From positions 1 through 8,008 of the forward strand of contig CALMGA010000166.1 in the NCBI GenBank assembly GCA_937863205.1: DNA of 8,008 nt, written 5' to 3'. Below are positions 1,526 to 7,026 of the stretch, piece after piece. Position numbers and translations under genes: made by a program. The notes below the pieces were generated by a model. It was given only the letters and a program-made list of their open reading frames with translations. It was not told where the DNA came from and searched no databases. Within the stretch, counting starts at the first letter, position 1. Each line of letters begins with the position of its first letter. The DNA is from an uncultured Beijerinckiaceae bacterium. Lineage in GTDB: Bacteria > Pseudomonadota > Alphaproteobacteria > Rhizobiales > Beijerinckiaceae.

Positions 1526-1554
1526 GGAACAGTGCCGCCGAGCCGCCGTTTGCT
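1526..1554 (+). promoter_or_regulatory. EcfG/RpoE2-type general stress promoter of the ene-reductase
   Basis: GGAAC at 1526-1530, a 16-base spacer, then CGTTTGCT at 1547-1554. This matches the EcfG consensus GGAAC-N16/17-CGTT exactly, and also the RpoE2 form GGAAC-N18/19-TT. It lies 87 bases upstream of the ATG at 1613. The flank ATTGCTGCCGGAAC is nearly identical to the one before the dehydrogenase gene. Confidence 0.7.
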
Positions 1555-1612: not shown

Positions 1613-2731
1613 ATGACGACCAGCCCGGTCCTGCAACCCTTCGTTCTCGGCGACCTCCGCCTCAAGAACCGCGTCGTCATGGCGCCGCTGACGCGCAGTC
1701 GCTCGTCCACGCAGGGCGTGCCGCCGTCCTTTGCCGCCGACTACTACGCCCAGCGCGCCAGCGCCGGCCTGATCGTGTCGGAGGCGACCAACATCTCGCC
1801 CCAGGCGGTCGGCTACGCCTTCACGCCCGGCATCTGGTCGGACGAGCAGGTCGAGCGCTGGCGGGACGTCACCGCGACCGTGCATGCCAACGACGGGCTG
1901 ATCTTCCTTCAGCTCTGGCACACGGGCCGCATCTCGCACCCCGACGTGCAGCCGGGCGGCGCAGCGCCCGTGTCCGCGTCGGCTATCAGGCCGGACGGTT
2001 CGGCTTTCACGGAGGCCGGTATGAAGGAGCACGTTACGCCGCGCGCGCTGGAGACCGACGAGGTCCCCGGCATCGTGGAGGACTACCGCCGCGCGGCCGA
2101 GAATGCCAAGCGCGCCGGCTTCGACGGCGTGGAGGTGCACTCCGCGAACAACTACCTGCTGGAGCAGTTCATCCGCGACTCGACCAACAAGCGCACGGAC
2201 CGCTATGGCGGTTCGGTCAAGAACCGCCTGCGCTTCCCGCTCGACGTGGTGCGCGCGGTAACAGAGGTTTGGGGCGGCGACCGCGTCGGCATCCGCATCT
2301 CGCCGGCGACGACGCAACCCGGCGGCACGCCGCTCGATGCCGACCCCAACGCGACCTACGGCGCATACGTCGACGCGCTAAGCGCCCTCGGCCTGCTCTA
2401 CATCCACACCATTGAGGGTGTGACGCAGCAGACCCGCGACGCGCCCGGCGGCGTCGACTTCGGCGAGTTGCGCCGCCGGTTCAAGGGTGCCTACATCACC
2501 AACAACGGGCTGACGCTGGACCTTGCCGAGCGCGAGCTGGCCGAGGGATGCGCGGACCTGTTCAGCTTCGGACGGCCATACATCGCCAATCCCGATCTTG
2601 TGGGGCGGCTCGCCACCGGCGCGCCGCTGGCCGAGGCGCCGAAGCCGTACTGGTACGGCGGCGGCGCCAACGGCTACTCCGACTGGCCCGGCATAAACGG
2701 GCCCGTCACGGTGCGCGGCCGGACGGGGTGA
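1613..2731 (+). CDS. Old Yellow Enzyme family ene-reductase (NemA-like)
   Basis: FMN-dependent, NAD(P)H-using TIM-barrel reductase, expected in the cytosol, that reduces activated C=C bonds of electrophiles such as enones and maleimides, and in some relatives nitro-esters. At 372 aa it has the usual family length. Visible motifs: MAPLTRSR (23-30) with the flavin-tuning Thr27; Gln100 and HTGRISHP (103-110); the substrate-binding pair His176/Asn179 in HSANNYLLEQF, with Tyr181 as the likely proton donor; RTDRYGGS (194-201); Arg228; SFGRPYIANPDLV (318-330) for FMN phosphate; and the C-terminal YGGGANGYSDWP signature. His/Asn resembles yeast OYE1 rather than the His/His of NemA and PETN reductase. 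The ATG at 1613 was chosen because the family N-terminus (LQPFVLGDLRLKNR) follows directly; the ribosome site is weak. It has its own stress-type promoter. The natural substrate cannot be told from sequence. Confidence 0.95.
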   Translation: MTTSPVLQPFVLGDLRLKNRVVMAPLTRSRSSTQGVPPSFAADYYAQRASAGLIVSEATNISPQAVGYAFTPGIWSDEQVERWRDVTATVHANDGLIFLQLWHTGRISHPDVQPGGAAPVSASAIRPDGSAFTEAGMKEHVTPRALETDEVPGIVEDYRRAAENAKRAGFDGVEVHSANNYLLEQFIRDSTNKRTDRYGGSVKNRLRFPLDVVRAVTEVWGGDRVGIRISPATTQPGGTPLDADPNATYGAYVDALSALGLLYIHTIEGVTQQTRDAPGGVDFGELRRRFKGAYITNNGLTLDLAERELAEGCADLFSFGRPYIANPDLVGRLATGAPLAEAPKPYWYGGGANGYSDWPGINGPVTVRGRTG

Positions 2732-2966: not shown

Positions 2967-3614
2967 TCACAATTGCCGGGCGCCGCGCGCTGCCGGCGTG
3001 GCCGACGGCACCAGGGCCATAACGATTGCGATGCCGGCCGCCGCCAGTGCGAAGCCGGCTGCCGCGGTGCGTACCGGATGCAGCGCCGCCGTCGTGTGGA
3101 GCGCGGACTCTTCAGGGTAGGAGATCTTTCCCGCATCCGCGATGATGCGTTGGGCGAGTGCCGTGAGGGCGATGTCGATCTTCCGGGTCTCGGCCGAGGT
3201 CCGATCGAAGACGGCCATCGCGTCGCGGAGCCCGAGTGCCTTGGCATAGGCGCGCAACGTGCCATAGATCGAGATGTAGAAATGCGCCGCGACTTGGCCG
3301 CACCCGATGTTGGCGAGATCGCGCGTGGCGCGGCCGCCGGCTTTGGCGACCAGCGCCTTGTTGGCATCGGCAATGCCTTCCATTGCCTGGTCGGTCCGTT
3401 TCTCGATGCCGCGTCCGAGCGACCTAAGGATCGGCTCGAGCCGTTTGGCCTGGGTCAGGTTCAGCTTGCTGCCCGTTTTCAGCATTTGCTTGAGCTTGGG
3501 CAGGCTCGATGAACCGATGTTCTGCCGAGCCTGCTCGCCGCCCTGGTGGTGGGCGGCGTGGAGCAGCTGCAGGCCTTCAACGAACAGGTTAAGTAGGCGA
3601 GGGTCTTTGGTCAT
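2967..3614 (-). CDS. DUF892/YciF-like ferritin-like protein with C-terminal membrane anchor
   Basis: 215 aa, mostly alpha-helical. The core resembles the DUF892 (YciE/YciF) ferritin-like family: LFVEGLQLLHAAHHQGGEQ (10-28), AMEGIADAN (77-85), AAHFYISIYGTLRAYAKALG (109-128) and AETRKIDIALTALAQ (141-155). Against YciF as I remember it, several Glu/His iron ligands are missing: the EHYE of helix 3 reads AHFY here. Only Glu142 has an obvious counterpart, so iron binding is doubtful. After a short linker, residues 183-203 form one hydrophobic segment, which ordinary YciF lacks, so the helical domain is probably held at the inner membrane. The ATG at 3614 has GGAG seven bases upstream. An open frame continues further upstream, but without family similarity. 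Members of this family are often general-stress proteins, in keeping with the GGAAC promoter upstream. The molecular function is unknown. Confidence 0.8.
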   Translation of the reverse strand: MTKDPRLLNLFVEGLQLLHAAHHQGGEQARQNIGSSSLPKLKQMLKTGSKLNLTQAKRLEPILRSLGRGIEKRTDQAMEGIADANKALVAKAGGRATRDLANIGCGQVAAHFYISIYGTLRAYAKALGLRDAMAVFDRTSAETRKIDIALTALAQRIIADAGKISYPEESALHTTAALHPVRTAAAGFALAAAGIAIVMALVPSATPAARGARQL

Positions 3615-3640
3615 GGCTTGGCTCCGCGGGGCTTGCGCGA

Positions 3641-3669
3641 AGCAAGGCGCAGACGCGGGCAAGCGTTCC
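3641..3669 (-). promoter_or_regulatory. Possible EcfG/RpoE2-type promoter of the DUF892 gene
   Basis: On the minus strand GGAAC (3669-3665) is followed after 19 bases by TTGCT (3645-3641). It fits GGAAC-N19-TT but lacks the full CGTT. It ends 26 bases upstream of the ATG. TTGCT sits at the same distance as in the ene-reductase and dehydrogenase promoters. Confidence 0.4.
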
Positions 3670-3712
3670 CCACTGCCAATGCCACTATGTCGCGTCCGGC
3701 CGCGCACTGGCG

Positions 3713-4078
3713 TCAGCCAGCGCGTTCGGGGTGTCGCCGGCGGCGAGCGTGCAATGCGTCGAGCGCCACCACCGGGGCGACCGCCGCGGTGGCCAGTATG
3801 GTACGCGCTCGCTCGGGATTGCTGGACCTCGTGCCCGCGGCCAGCAGCGCGCCGTCGAGCATGTCGCCCGCGACCCGCGTCCACAGCCACGCTTGCGGAT
3901 CGTCCGCGGCCAGGATGAGGACGCCCGATGCAATCTCGCGAACCCCGAAAATCTGCAGCAGCCTCTCATACCCTTGCAGCCCGGCCGCCCGCGCGACAGC
4001 GCGGGGAGCCAGAAGCTCGGCCAAGCCAAGCCCGATGCCAAACCACGCCAAGCCGCGTGCCACGTCGGGAGACTTCAT
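3713..4078 (-). CDS. Small integral membrane protein of unknown function
   Basis: 121 aa. It has the pattern ARGLAWFGIGLGLAELLAPR (7-26), GVREIASGVLIL (45-56), PQAWLWTRVAGDMLDGALLA (61-80) and a last hydrophobic stretch (92-108), which suggests three or four membrane segments. I remember this layout from small membrane proteins (DUF4267-like) and from the N-terminal membrane part of alphaproteobacterial SRPBCC 'cyclase/dehydrase' proteins found in stress clusters. No catalytic motif is visible. The ATG at 4078 is preferred over the one at 4087 because GAAGGA (4092-4087) then sits at an ideal 8-base spacing; starting at 4087 would place the ribosome site on the start codon itself. It is followed 98 bases later by the DUF892 gene on the same strand, so the two may be partly cotranscribed. 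The family name is tentative. Confidence 0.7.
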   Translation of the reverse strand: MKSPDVARGLAWFGIGLGLAELLAPRAVARAAGLQGYERLLQIFGVREIASGVLILAADDPQAWLWTRVAGDMLDGALLAAGTRSSNPERARTILATAAVAPVVALDALHARRRRHPERAG

Positions 4079-4086
4079 CAGGAGCA

Positions 4087-4092
4087 TCCTTC
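4087..4092 (-). promoter_or_regulatory. Ribosome binding site deciding the start of the small membrane gene
   Basis: GAAGGA on the minus strand, 8 bases before the ATG at 4078. It overlaps the alternative ATG at 4087, which argues against that start. Confidence 0.55.
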
Positions 4093-4186
4093 AAAGCGAG
4101 ACAAGCGGATCGAGACTGGGATGATGGTGCCTGCCGGCGAGAGGGGTCGACCCATCATCCCTCGCGAGCGTTGATCAAGGCCAAGC

Positions 4187-4215
4187 CAGCAAGCGCCACG
4201 CAGCTAAGTTGTTCC
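4187..4215 (-). promoter_or_regulatory. Possible second GGAAC promoter of the small membrane gene
   Basis: Minus-strand GGAAC (4215-4211) is followed after 18 bases by TTGCT (4192-4188). It overlaps the upstream copy with a 15-base offset, so the gene may have tandem stress promoters. Confidence 0.35.
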
Positions 4216-4230
4216 GAACAAGTCGGTTCC
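4202..4230 (-). promoter_or_regulatory. Possible EcfG/RpoE2-type promoter of the small membrane gene
   Basis: Minus-strand CCGGAACCG, with GGAAC at 4230-4226, is followed after a 16-base spacer by ACTTAGCT (4209-4202). The divergent dehydrogenase promoter reads CCGGAACCG then ACTTTGCT at the same spacing. The implied leader to the ATG at 4078 is rather long, about 115 bases. Confidence 0.4.
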
Positions 4231-4304
4231 GGCTTGCCGCGCGCGCCGAACAACTATCATTTCATAACATACACTGCTCTTCATTCGAGTTTCTCATTGC
4301 TACC
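4231..4304. other. Centre of the divergent regulatory region
   Basis: No gene is seen between the minus-strand pair and the dehydrogenase operon. This AT-richer centre lies between the GGAAC promoters that point in each direction. Confidence 0.4.
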
Positions 4305-4333
4305 GGAACCGTTCCACCAGGCATGACTTTGCT
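4305..4333 (+). promoter_or_regulatory. EcfG/RpoE2-type promoter of the dehydrogenase-catalase operon
   Basis: GGAAC (4305-4309), a 16-base spacer, then ACTTTGCT (4326-4333). TTTGCTCG lies exactly as far from GGAAC as in the ene-reductase promoter, and ATTGCTACCGGAAC matches its flank at 13 of 14 bases. GGAAC is 80 bases upstream of the ATG. It also contains the short palindrome GGAACCGTTCC (4305-4315). Confidence 0.55.
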
Positions 4334-4384: not shown

Positions 4385-5557
4385 ATGCGCGCACTCTGTT
4401 GGCACGGCAAGAACGACATCCGCTGCGACACCGTCCCCGACCCGACCATCGAGGACAGCCGCGATGTCATCATCAAGGTCACGAGCTGCGCCATCTGCGG
4501 CTCCGACCTCCACCTCATGGACGGGCAGATGCCGTCCATGAAGTCCGGCGACGTGCTCGGCCACGAGTTCATGGGCGAGGTGGTCGAGACCGGCAGCCCC
4601 AACCACAAGCTCAAGAAGGGCCAGCGCATCGTGGTGCCCTTCAACATCAACTGCGGCGAGTGCGCCCAGTGCAAACGCGGCAACTGGTCGGTATGCTTGC
4701 GCTCCAACCGCAACGGCGCCATGGCGGCGGAACTGTTCGGCTACCCCACCGCCGGCCTGTTCGGATACTCGCACATCACCGGCGGCTATGCCGGCGGTCA
4801 GGCCGAATACGTGCGCGTGCCTATGGCCGACGTCGCGCCCATGGTGGTGCCGGACGGCATGACCGACGAGCAGCTGCTGTTCCTGACCGACATCCTGCCC
4901 ACCGCTTGGCAGGGCGTGGAGCACGCCGAGGTGGGGGAAGGCGACACGGTGGCGATCTGGGGCGCCGGCCCGGTCGGGCTGTTCGCCGTGCAGTGCGCCA
5001 AGATCAAGGGTGCGGAGCGCATCATCATGATCGACACCGTGCCGGAGCGTATCGCGCTGGCCCGGAAGTTCGGCGCGACGGCCGTCATCGATTTCGAGAA
5101 GGAGCAGGTCTACGACCGCATCAAGGAGATCACCGGCGGCGCCGGCGCCGACAGCGTGATCGACTGCGTCGGCATGGAGGCTTCCGCCGGCCACGGCATC
5201 GCCAACGTCCTGTCGACCATCCAGGAGAAGATCACCGCGACGGAGCGCCCCTACGTGCTCAACGAGGCGATCCGCGCCGTGCGCTCCTGCGGCATCGTTT
5301 CCGTGCCGGGCGTCTACGGCAACCTCATCCCCGTCAACATGGGCGCGGTGGTGCAGAAGGGGCTGACGCTGAAGAGCGGGCAGACCCACGTGAAGCGCTA
5401 CCTCGAACCCCTCACCAAGCTGATCGGCGAGGGCAAGTTCGACACGACCTCGCTCGTCACGCACCGCAGCACCGACCTGACGCAGGGGCCGGACCTGTAC
5501 AAGGCGTTTCGCGACAAGAAGGACGGCTGCGTCAAGGTCGTGTTCAACCTCGCCTAG
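4385..5557 (+). CDS. Zinc-dependent alcohol dehydrogenase, formaldehyde dehydrogenase-like
   Basis: 390-aa medium-chain dehydrogenase of the cytosolic, glutathione-independent formaldehyde dehydrogenase-like group; it oxidises an alcohol or aldehyde adduct with NAD. Catalytic zinc ligands: Cys38 in CAICGSDLH (35-43), and His60 with Glu61 in GHEFMGEV, with Asp169 (TDILPTAWQG) as a likely fourth. Structural zinc: Cys90, Cys93, Cys96 and Cys104. The Rossmann motif GAGPVG is at 193-198, and Asp217 at the end of the second strand points to NAD rather than NADP. The ATG at 4385 has GAGGAG (4373-4378) six bases upstream, an excellent site. The catalase-like gene follows after 58 bases on the same strand with no clear terminator, so the two are likely cotranscribed from the GGAAC promoter. 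The family is sure; the substrate (formaldehyde, another aldehyde or an alcohol) is not. Confidence 0.94.
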   Translation: MRALCWHGKNDIRCDTVPDPTIEDSRDVIIKVTSCAICGSDLHLMDGQMPSMKSGDVLGHEFMGEVVETGSPNHKLKKGQRIVVPFNINCGECAQCKRGNWSVCLRSNRNGAMAAELFGYPTAGLFGYSHITGGYAGGQAEYVRVPMADVAPMVVPDGMTDEQLLFLTDILPTAWQGVEHAEVGEGDTVAIWGAGPVGLFAVQCAKIKGAERIIMIDTVPERIALARKFGATAVIDFEKEQVYDRIKEITGGAGADSVIDCVGMEASAGHGIANVLSTIQEKITATERPYVLNEAIRAVRSCGIVSVPGVYGNLIPVNMGAVVQKGLTLKSGQTHVKRYLEPLTKLIGEGKFDTTSLVTHRSTDLTQGPDLYKAFRDKKDGCVKVVFNLA

Positions 5558-5615: not shown

Positions 5616-6740
5616 ATGATTGAAACCTCCAATGCGCGCGCGAGGCGGGTCCCGCTTCGCTATGCCCCCACCATCGAGGCGCCGCAGCCCGACGAGGCGG
5701 AGGCGATCGCCGGCATCATCGACGCCATGACCAGGCAGAGCGAGGTCGTCGCCGGGCGCGAGAACCACGCGGTGCGCGCGTCGCACGCCAAGAGCACGGC
5801 CGTCGCGGTGGGCGAGCTGACGGTCGCACCCGGCCTGCCGCCGGAGCTGGCGCAGGGCCTGTTCGCCGCGCCCGGCCGCTATGACGTCGCCGTGCGCTTC
5901 GCCCAGGGGCCGGGCGAAACCCTGCCGGACAGGGTGTCGACCCATCGCGGCATGTCCATCAAGGTGTTCGGCGTCACGGGCGAGACGCTGCCCGGCCACG
6001 GCGACGCGACGCAGGACTTCCTCTTGGCGACGGGGGCGACCTTCCCGTCCGGCACGGCGCAGCAGTTCCTCAAGGACGAGAAGCAGATCCTCGCGGCGAC
6101 GAGGCTGCCCGAAAGCGTGCAGACCGGCGTGAAGTCCGCCGTGTCGGCGGTGGCGCGCGGCGCCAACGCGGCGCTGCAGGCGATGGGCGGCGGAAGCTCG
6201 AAAGCCGGCTTCTTCGGCCACCCCTTCAGCCATCCGCTAACCGACTCGTACCACAGCCAGGCGCCGATCCGCTTCGGCGAGCACGTCGCCAAGATCGCCG
6301 CCTTTCCCGTCGGCGCGGAGCAGCAGGCGCTCACCGGGCAGGAGGTCGACTTCAAATCGGACCCCGACGGCTTCCGCCACGCCGCGGTCGGCTACCTGCG
6401 CGACCACGACGCCGTGTTCGAACTGCGCGCGCAGCTTTGGACGGATGCTGCCAGCCAGCCGATCGAGGACACCTCCGTCGAGTGGAAGGAAGCGGAAACG
6501 CCCTACCTGACCGTGGCGACGATCCGCCTGCCGCGGCAGGACGCCGGCAGCGCCGAGCGCCGGCGCTACTTCGACGAGGTGATGAGCTTCCGGCCGGCGC
6601 ATTCGCTCGCCGCGCACCGCCCGCTCGGCTCGGTGATGCGGGCGCGGCTCAAGGTGTACGAGGCGTTGTCCGACTTCCGCCACCAGCTCAACGCGGTAGC
6701 GACGGAGGAGCCGGCCGACCCCTCGCGCATCCCGGCCTGA
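5616..6740 (+). CDS. Compact haem catalase-family protein
   Basis: 374 aa, much shorter than classical catalases (480 or more). It belongs to the catalase-like family (SrpA-type), which includes small peroxidases and poorly characterised members. The distal histidine is visible as His57 in RASHAKS (54-60), followed by the barrel strands VAVRFAQGP (91-99) and HRGMSIKVFG (110-119). The proximal haem tyrosine is Tyr348 in RLKVY, the R-x-x-x-Y arrangement of catalases, after the block HRPLGSVMRAR (334-344). Where catalases have the distal Asn in GNNTP, this protein has GDATQ (129-133), so efficient catalatic activity is doubtful and peroxidase or peroxygenase chemistry is possible. No signal peptide is seen, so it is probably cytosolic. 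The ATG at 5616 is preferred over 5565 because GAGAGGG lies just upstream. It is second in the operon behind the dehydrogenase. Confidence 0.9.
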   Translation: MIETSNARARRVPLRYAPTIEAPQPDEAEAIAGIIDAMTRQSEVVAGRENHAVRASHAKSTAVAVGELTVAPGLPPELAQGLFAAPGRYDVAVRFAQGPGETLPDRVSTHRGMSIKVFGVTGETLPGHGDATQDFLLATGATFPSGTAQQFLKDEKQILAATRLPESVQTGVKSAVSAVARGANAALQAMGGGSSKAGFFGHPFSHPLTDSYHSQAPIRFGEHVAKIAAFPVGAEQQALTGQEVDFKSDPDGFRHAAVGYLRDHDAVFELRAQLWTDAASQPIEDTSVEWKEAETPYLTVATIRLPRQDAGSAERRRYFDEVMSFRPAHSLAAHRPLGSVMRARLKVYEALSDFRHQLNAVATEEPADPSRIPA

Positions 6741-6798: not shown

Positions 6799-7026
6799 AT
6801 GAGACGTCCCCTGATCGCGGCGCCCCTCCTCGGCGCGGCTGGCATCGCTCCGGCTCTTGCGGACGGCTCGCCACTGTTCGACGCGGCCTTTGTCAAGAAG
6901 GCGTTTGTCGGCGACCTGTTCGAACAGGAGGCCGAGCTTGCGCTCCAGCGGGCGATCAACCCGCGCCTCAAGGACTTCGCGCATGGCATGGTCAACCGCG
7001 CCGCCCTGGCGAAACGGGCAAACTGA
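6799..7026 (+). pseudogene. N-terminal fragment of a secreted DUF4142-type protein
   Basis: 75 codons from an ATG with AAGGGA a few bases upstream, 58 bases after the catalase-like gene, so it was probably the third gene of the operon. A clear Sec signal peptide (RR, a hydrophobic core, then ALA at 19-21 before DG) precedes FVKKAFVGDLFEQEAELALQ (31-50) and NPRLKDFAHGMV (54-65), which resemble the first helices of DUF4142, a periplasmic ferritin-like family usually 150-200 aa long. The similarity stops near residue 66, and the frame closes ten codons later where alpha/beta hydrolase sequence takes over. It may still yield a short secreted peptide, but not a complete domain. The DUF4142 assignment is by pattern and moderately sure. 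Confidence 0.65.

Follow-up and report, generated by a model that had tools for sequence, protein, structure and literature searches.

The PhyR/NepR/EcfG partner switch is established for its family of regulators. Published EcfG consensus sequences carry GTT (PMC3892343, PMC6599016, PMC4814048). Promoters of Methylobacterium extorquens, a species which together with its sister species provides many of the orthologues in our comparison sets, are given as GAAC-N16,17-C/GGTT (PMC4814048). The EcfG regulon of Sphingomonas melonis Fr1 is described with the motif GGAAC-N17-20-GTT, and lists among its top genes a catalase and a Zn-dependent alcohol dehydrogenase, whose sites score low there (8.83 and 6.61, at a cut-off of 10; PMC6599016). 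In Sphingopyxis, 14 types of −10 box are reported (PMC7083833).

The window, i.e. the whole stretch of 8,008 nucleotides that was analysed, would represent an oxidative and aldehyde stress gene cluster of an uncultured Beijerinckiaceae-like alphaproteobacterium. It resembles the EcfG/RpoE2/SigT (ECF15) systems in the −35 sequence GGAAC, in TT placed at N18/19, in the proximity of these sites to start codons, in stress-type genes downstream, and in the presence of an ecfG-nepR/phyR locus in the closest relative found. The −35 and the spacer are as in M. extorquens, while the consensus base before TT, G in that species, is mostly C in the window. CGTT occurs only at position 1526, C precedes TT elsewhere, and GCT follows TT, directly or after one base, in all five sites.

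On both strands of the window 17 GGAAC pentamers were found, and five of them (5/17) are followed by TT at N18 or N19. They begin at 1526 and 4305 on the plus strand, and at 4230, 4215, and 3669 on the minus strand. All five had been placed before named genes in an earlier note; they are present at the positions claimed there and are intergenic, and the window contains no further GGAAC-N18/19-TT site. Each is directed at its gene, with the onset of GGAAC 55-143 bases before the start codon. The five sites fall within 1,896 non-coding bases, and none is located in the coding DNA of the window. The comparison with shuffled sequence suggested in the earlier note came out in favour of the sites, as dinucleotide shuffles of the intergenic segments gave a mean of 0.30 sites against the five observed, and 0/500 shuffles reached five.

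The first plus-strand site (1526..1554, GGAAC-N16-CGTT-TGCT, −10 TT at 1549-1550) precedes by 87 bases the ATG at 1613 of an ene-reductase gene (Oxidored_FMN; 1613..2731, plus), whose top NCBIfam match, under the cut-off, is N-ethylmaleimide reductase. The second (4305..4333, GGAAC-N18-TTTGCT) lies 80 bases before the ATG at 4385 of a zinc-dependent alcohol dehydrogenase gene (4385..5557, plus; top NCBIfam match glutathione-independent formaldehyde dehydrogenase, under the cut-off). This gene is followed by one for a catalase-family protein (5616..6740, plus), with which it presumably forms an operon. Pfam and NCBIfam scans of the latter protein returned no match; on Methylorubrum extorquens plasmid pME152, a “catalase family protein” shares 66.8% identity with it and is encoded near an HWE kinase, dps, and msrA. 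On the minus strand, the site at 3641..3669 (GGAAC-N19-TTGCT) is 55 bases before the ATG at 3614 of a DUF892 gene (2967..3614; the family scan covered 2967-3611). The remaining two are arranged in tandem, at 4202..4230 (GGAAC-N18-TTAGCT) and 4188..4215 (GGAAC-N18-TTGCT), 143 and 128 bases before the start at 4087 of a gene for a small protein (3713..4087, minus) with a weak DUF4267 match under the curated cut-off.

The EcfG-type −35 GGAAC is present in 5/5 sites, as is TT at N18/19, equivalent to N16/17 when counted to the four-base box. A C/GGTT −10 box is found at 1526 only (CGTT), and the other four sites read ACTT, ACTT, GCTT, and CCTT. We scored the sites with a matrix derived from nepR/phyR sites, these being positional homologues of known targets rather than mapped promoters, collected on both strands of the 600-base regions that precede NepR in 40 loci. 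The highest value was obtained for 1526 (14.5 bits), followed by 4305 (12.8), 3669 (9.6), 4230 (7.5), and 4215 (6.4). In the closest relative, the medians among the matches listed were 10.1 bits for upstream sites and 7.3 bits for coding hits.

This relative, an uncultured Beijerinckiaceae metagenome-assembled genome (G001), was identified by protein identity in a search that took in 48 genomes. It shares 83% identity with the window in the dehydrogenase, 84% in the ene-reductase, 82% in the DUF892 protein, and 70% in the DUF4267-like protein, for which two other genomes are slightly nearer (75 and 72%). A search with the DUF892 protein and the ene-reductase among 299 relatives of G001 revealed none nearer than G001. 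NepR was found in 41 of 60 G001 relatives, G001 counted in. In G001 itself, nepR adjoins an ECF sigma factor gene and a divergent phyR, whose product carries both PhyR sigma-like domains and the receiver domain.

Use of the motif was further assessed in the G001 genome. Of 209 motif matches the first 100 were listed, and the loci inspected derive from 98 of these, two mirror-repeat hits on C184 being left out; loci of the window orthologues, of nepR, and nine loci chosen for TTGCT were added. Among the matches listed, TT at N18/19 accompanies 47/82 GGAAC located upstream of genes, a class that is approximate because genes were called by a simple codon-usage script which may trim starts, versus 41/316 coding GGAAC, or 37/299 when loci selected for GCT are removed. 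Sites assigned to neither class (15/103 of the N18/19 sites among the matches listed) were excluded from the Fisher test; one of these, the DUF892 site, was entered by hand in the pool used for GCT below. The difference between 47/82 and 41/316 indicates that the motif seems to be in promoter use in G001, within the limits set by the simple gene caller and by the choice of loci around hits. Taken by themselves, raw counts of GGAAC-N18/19-TT over whole genomes say little, because the backwards control exceeded the motif in 5/5 genomes.

Conservation at orthologous genes is most extensive for the dehydrogenase. Counting everything within 300 nt upstream (the non-coding subset gives different counts), GGAAC-N18/19-TT was found in 39/80 orthologues and N18-20 in 62/80. 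Spacers of 8-17 and 22-30 occurred in 0-3/80 each, N21 in 11/80, and the backwards control in 0/80. The position of GGAAC varies by clade (−59 to −216), and so does the spacer, which suggests turnover of the promoter with the motif retained. This dehydrogenase promoter is thus conserved over many species. For the ene-reductase, GGAAC-N18/19-TT precedes the gene by no more than 300 nt in 11/30 loci, and in several of them it stands at −78 to −80. The opposite strand has the motif in 4 loci and the backwards control gives 2/30; no GGAAC was found upstream of the closest ene-reductase orthologue, that of G001 (L191). Among DUF892 relatives the motif is present in 6/30. In G001 (L125) the DUF892 site reads GGAAC-N19-TTGCTTCG, with GGAAC and the spacing conserved, and a stretch of 40 bases of the leader (3611-3669), which starts just ahead of the −10 and runs to the start codon, is identical between G001 and the window. 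An RNA hairpin can be folded in this leader, yet it overlaps the −10, and we make no claim for it. Only 2/30 DUF4267-like loci carry the motif. One of them, the G001 orthologue (L157), has an upstream GGAAC-N18-TT site with TTCGCT at a distance that differs from that in the window.

Ordinary EcfG-type promoters on at least three units, with GCT lying outside the element as a local coincidence noticed post hoc, are the explanation that we consider quite probable. The earlier note had assigned RpoE2/EcfG-type promoters to several transcription units, and this is supported for the dehydrogenase, DUF892, and ene-reductase units, while it is not supported for the tandem site at 4215 and is in doubt for the small gene. 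To judge from the sequences compared, an EcfG-type promoter is likely at the dehydrogenase and DUF892 units, moderately supported at the ene-reductase, and doubtful at the DUF4267-like gene. Several observations count against EcfG promoters, namely that four of the five sites are without the consensus −10 box and have C before TT, that the motif also occurs on the opposite strand in 15/80 dehydrogenase upstream regions, that the G001 ene-reductase is not preceded by GGAAC, and that few DUF892 and DUF4267 relatives carry the motif. Transcription of the ene-reductase, the DUF892 gene, and the dehydrogenase with the catalase-family gene would begin at promoters of the EcfG (ECF15, RpoE2, SigT) type, from start sites expected downstream of the boxes listed above. 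GGAAC would be contacted by region 4 of EcfG and TT at N18/19 by region 2. Phosphorylated PhyR would pull NepR off EcfG and in this way switch the promoters on, the regulators presumably being encoded in the window's own genome as well. General stress response control is accordingly likely for these three units in an uncultured relative of Methylobacterium.

At the tandem pair a different explanation has to be weighed. The GGAAC at 4215 overlaps a perfect dyad, TTGTTC-C-GAACAA (4209-4221), and further arms, AGTTGTTC and GAACAACT, are located at 4207-4214 and 4248-4255. In total, three GAACAA half-sites lie in 4207-4255, between divergent genes, and this segment is a possible operator. The site at 4215, and perhaps that at 4230, may thus be by-products of repeated GAACAACT half-sites that serve a local regulator, an explanation to which we assign a little less than an even chance. 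The matrix scores are consistent with this, as 4215 scores lower than the median that coding hits reach by chance in G001 (among the matches listed) and 4230 is near it, and so is the rarity of the motif at DUF4267 loci. Against it, GGAAC-N18-TT is also present upstream of the G001 orthologue, family scans of the window disclosed no regulator gene, and six-base dyads with short gaps exist elsewhere in the window too. For the tandem pair, an operator and a second promoter are equally good explanations, and 4215 is probably no separate promoter.

For the triplet GCT next to TT to be common to all five window sites, one intervening base has to be tolerated. The tails are TTTGCT at 1526 and 4305, TTGCT at 3669 and 4215, and TTAGCT at 4230. 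A scan for the pattern GGAAC-N16..22-TTNGCT gave 3 matches versus 0.06 expected. Five random TT sites share some triplet at offset 0 or 1 in 1e-5 of draws when only intergenic TT are sampled, and in 5.5e-5 when all TT are. If the tandem pair is taken as one, which leaves four sites, the values are 2.75e-4 and 5.15e-4. In the window, GCT at these offsets follows 15/165 intergenic TT, the five sites counted in, and 9/341 coding TT. The promoters at 1526 and 4305 are alike in 29/42 bases, and other pairs in 14-19.

The earlier note had suggested that GCT is a shared extension of the −10 in a local stress regulon, and this was not borne out by homologous promoters, from which the triplet is nearly absent. 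It occurs in 2/78 nepR/phyR sites of relatives, in 3/39 dehydrogenase sites, and in 0/10 ene-reductase sites. For distinct DUF892 and DUF4267 sites the counts are 1/6 and 1/2, with G001 as the carrier each time. G001 sites among the matches listed have GCT in 5/47 upstream and 1/37 coding cases, or in 6/48 when the DUF892 site is added. The nine loci chosen for TTGCT inflate the coding control, which is 3/41 with them and 1/37 without them; the upstream count is the same. The pooled rate, including the G001 DUF892 site but otherwise leaving out the DUF892 and DUF4267 orthologue sets save their G001 members, is 11/175. It differs from 5/5 in the window with Fisher values of 3e-6, or 3e-5 for four units, uncorrected for the choice of the triplet, which was picked after inspection of the sites. 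Since GCT is seldom kept in related promoters, its position beside TT is probably a local coincidence. This coincidence would have been aided by the likeness of the 1526 and 4305 promoters and by the strongly conserved DUF892 leader. A role of GCT as a general part of the EcfG element is not supported by the homologues compared.

A true local variant, in which (C/G)TT(N)GCT, or in a wider sense CTTG, is the −10 favoured in this lineage or by one of its EcfG paralogues and sets a small sub-regulon of aldehyde and oxidative stress genes apart from the CGTT core of nepR and phyR, is in our opinion unlikely. It would account for GCT in 5/5 window sites, for its retention at the G001 DUF892 gene and in the TTCGCT of the DUF4267 orthologue, and for the 5/47 upstream versus 1/37 coding sites in G001 (matches listed, loci picked for GCT removed). 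GGAAC-N18-TTGCT is also found 58 bases upstream of dps on pME152 (L314, 7739, minus strand), a further GCT bearer. In addition, GCT in the pool remains slightly above background at TT (11/175 versus 16/657 and 763/24,584 other TT; Fisher 0.016 and 0.026), although the pool falls to 9/173 once the two sites contributed by the DUF892 and DUF4267 orthologues in G001 are taken out. The triplet is lost in most dehydrogenase and all ene-reductase orthologue sites, and the G001 dehydrogenase site reads CCTTGGCACG. Throughout the G001 genome GGAAC-N18-20-TTGCT occurs 9 times, fewer than the 15 of its backwards control. GCT at the DUF892 gene carries no separate signal, because it is inside the 40-base stretch that is identical throughout.

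The base before TT is the other feature that would fit such a variant. In nepR/phyR sites (n = 75) G takes this place in 60 and A in 13, with a single C and a single T, whereas C is found in 4/5 window sites, in 12/23 dehydrogenase representatives, and in 8/10 ene-reductase sites. The dehydrogenase value is not clearly above the local TT background (234/666, Fisher 0.12) and may mean relaxed constraint. Recognition by some other ECF sigma factor, one whose −10 is of the CTTG type, is very unlikely, for although C before TT and G after TT (12/23 each) in dehydrogenase representatives and a separate N20 class would agree with it, the frequency of C is not clearly above background, the −35 and spacing are the same as those of EcfG, the S. 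melonis study (PMC6599016) places low-scoring catalase and Zn-alcohol dehydrogenase genes in the EcfG regulon, and −10 boxes vary, as in Sphingopyxis (PMC7083833). A sigma-70 −35 reading of CTTGNC was also considered and is not adopted here. C versus G before TT, in these targets and in nepR/phyR sites, poses a small testable question on −10 preference among EcfG paralogues.

The N20 class, GGAACTTGGCCGTA...TT, is conserved in Methylorubrum and others, where GGAAC precedes the dehydrogenase gene by about 80 bases (e.g. L005, L008, L009, L010, L014, L018, and L019). It may be a promoter of another ECF sigma factor.

Family scans of the window also disclosed a gene for a bicupin oxalate-decarboxylase-family protein. 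At 6799-7026, a short DUF4142 match just under the cut-off (75 aa, positions 3-44 of 138) looks truncated. DUF892 and ene-reductase genes adjoin, as they do in the window, in three loci of relatives (L126, L127, and L130, in G079, G092, and G002), and the ene-reductase copy beside DUF892 is broken in G079 and G092.
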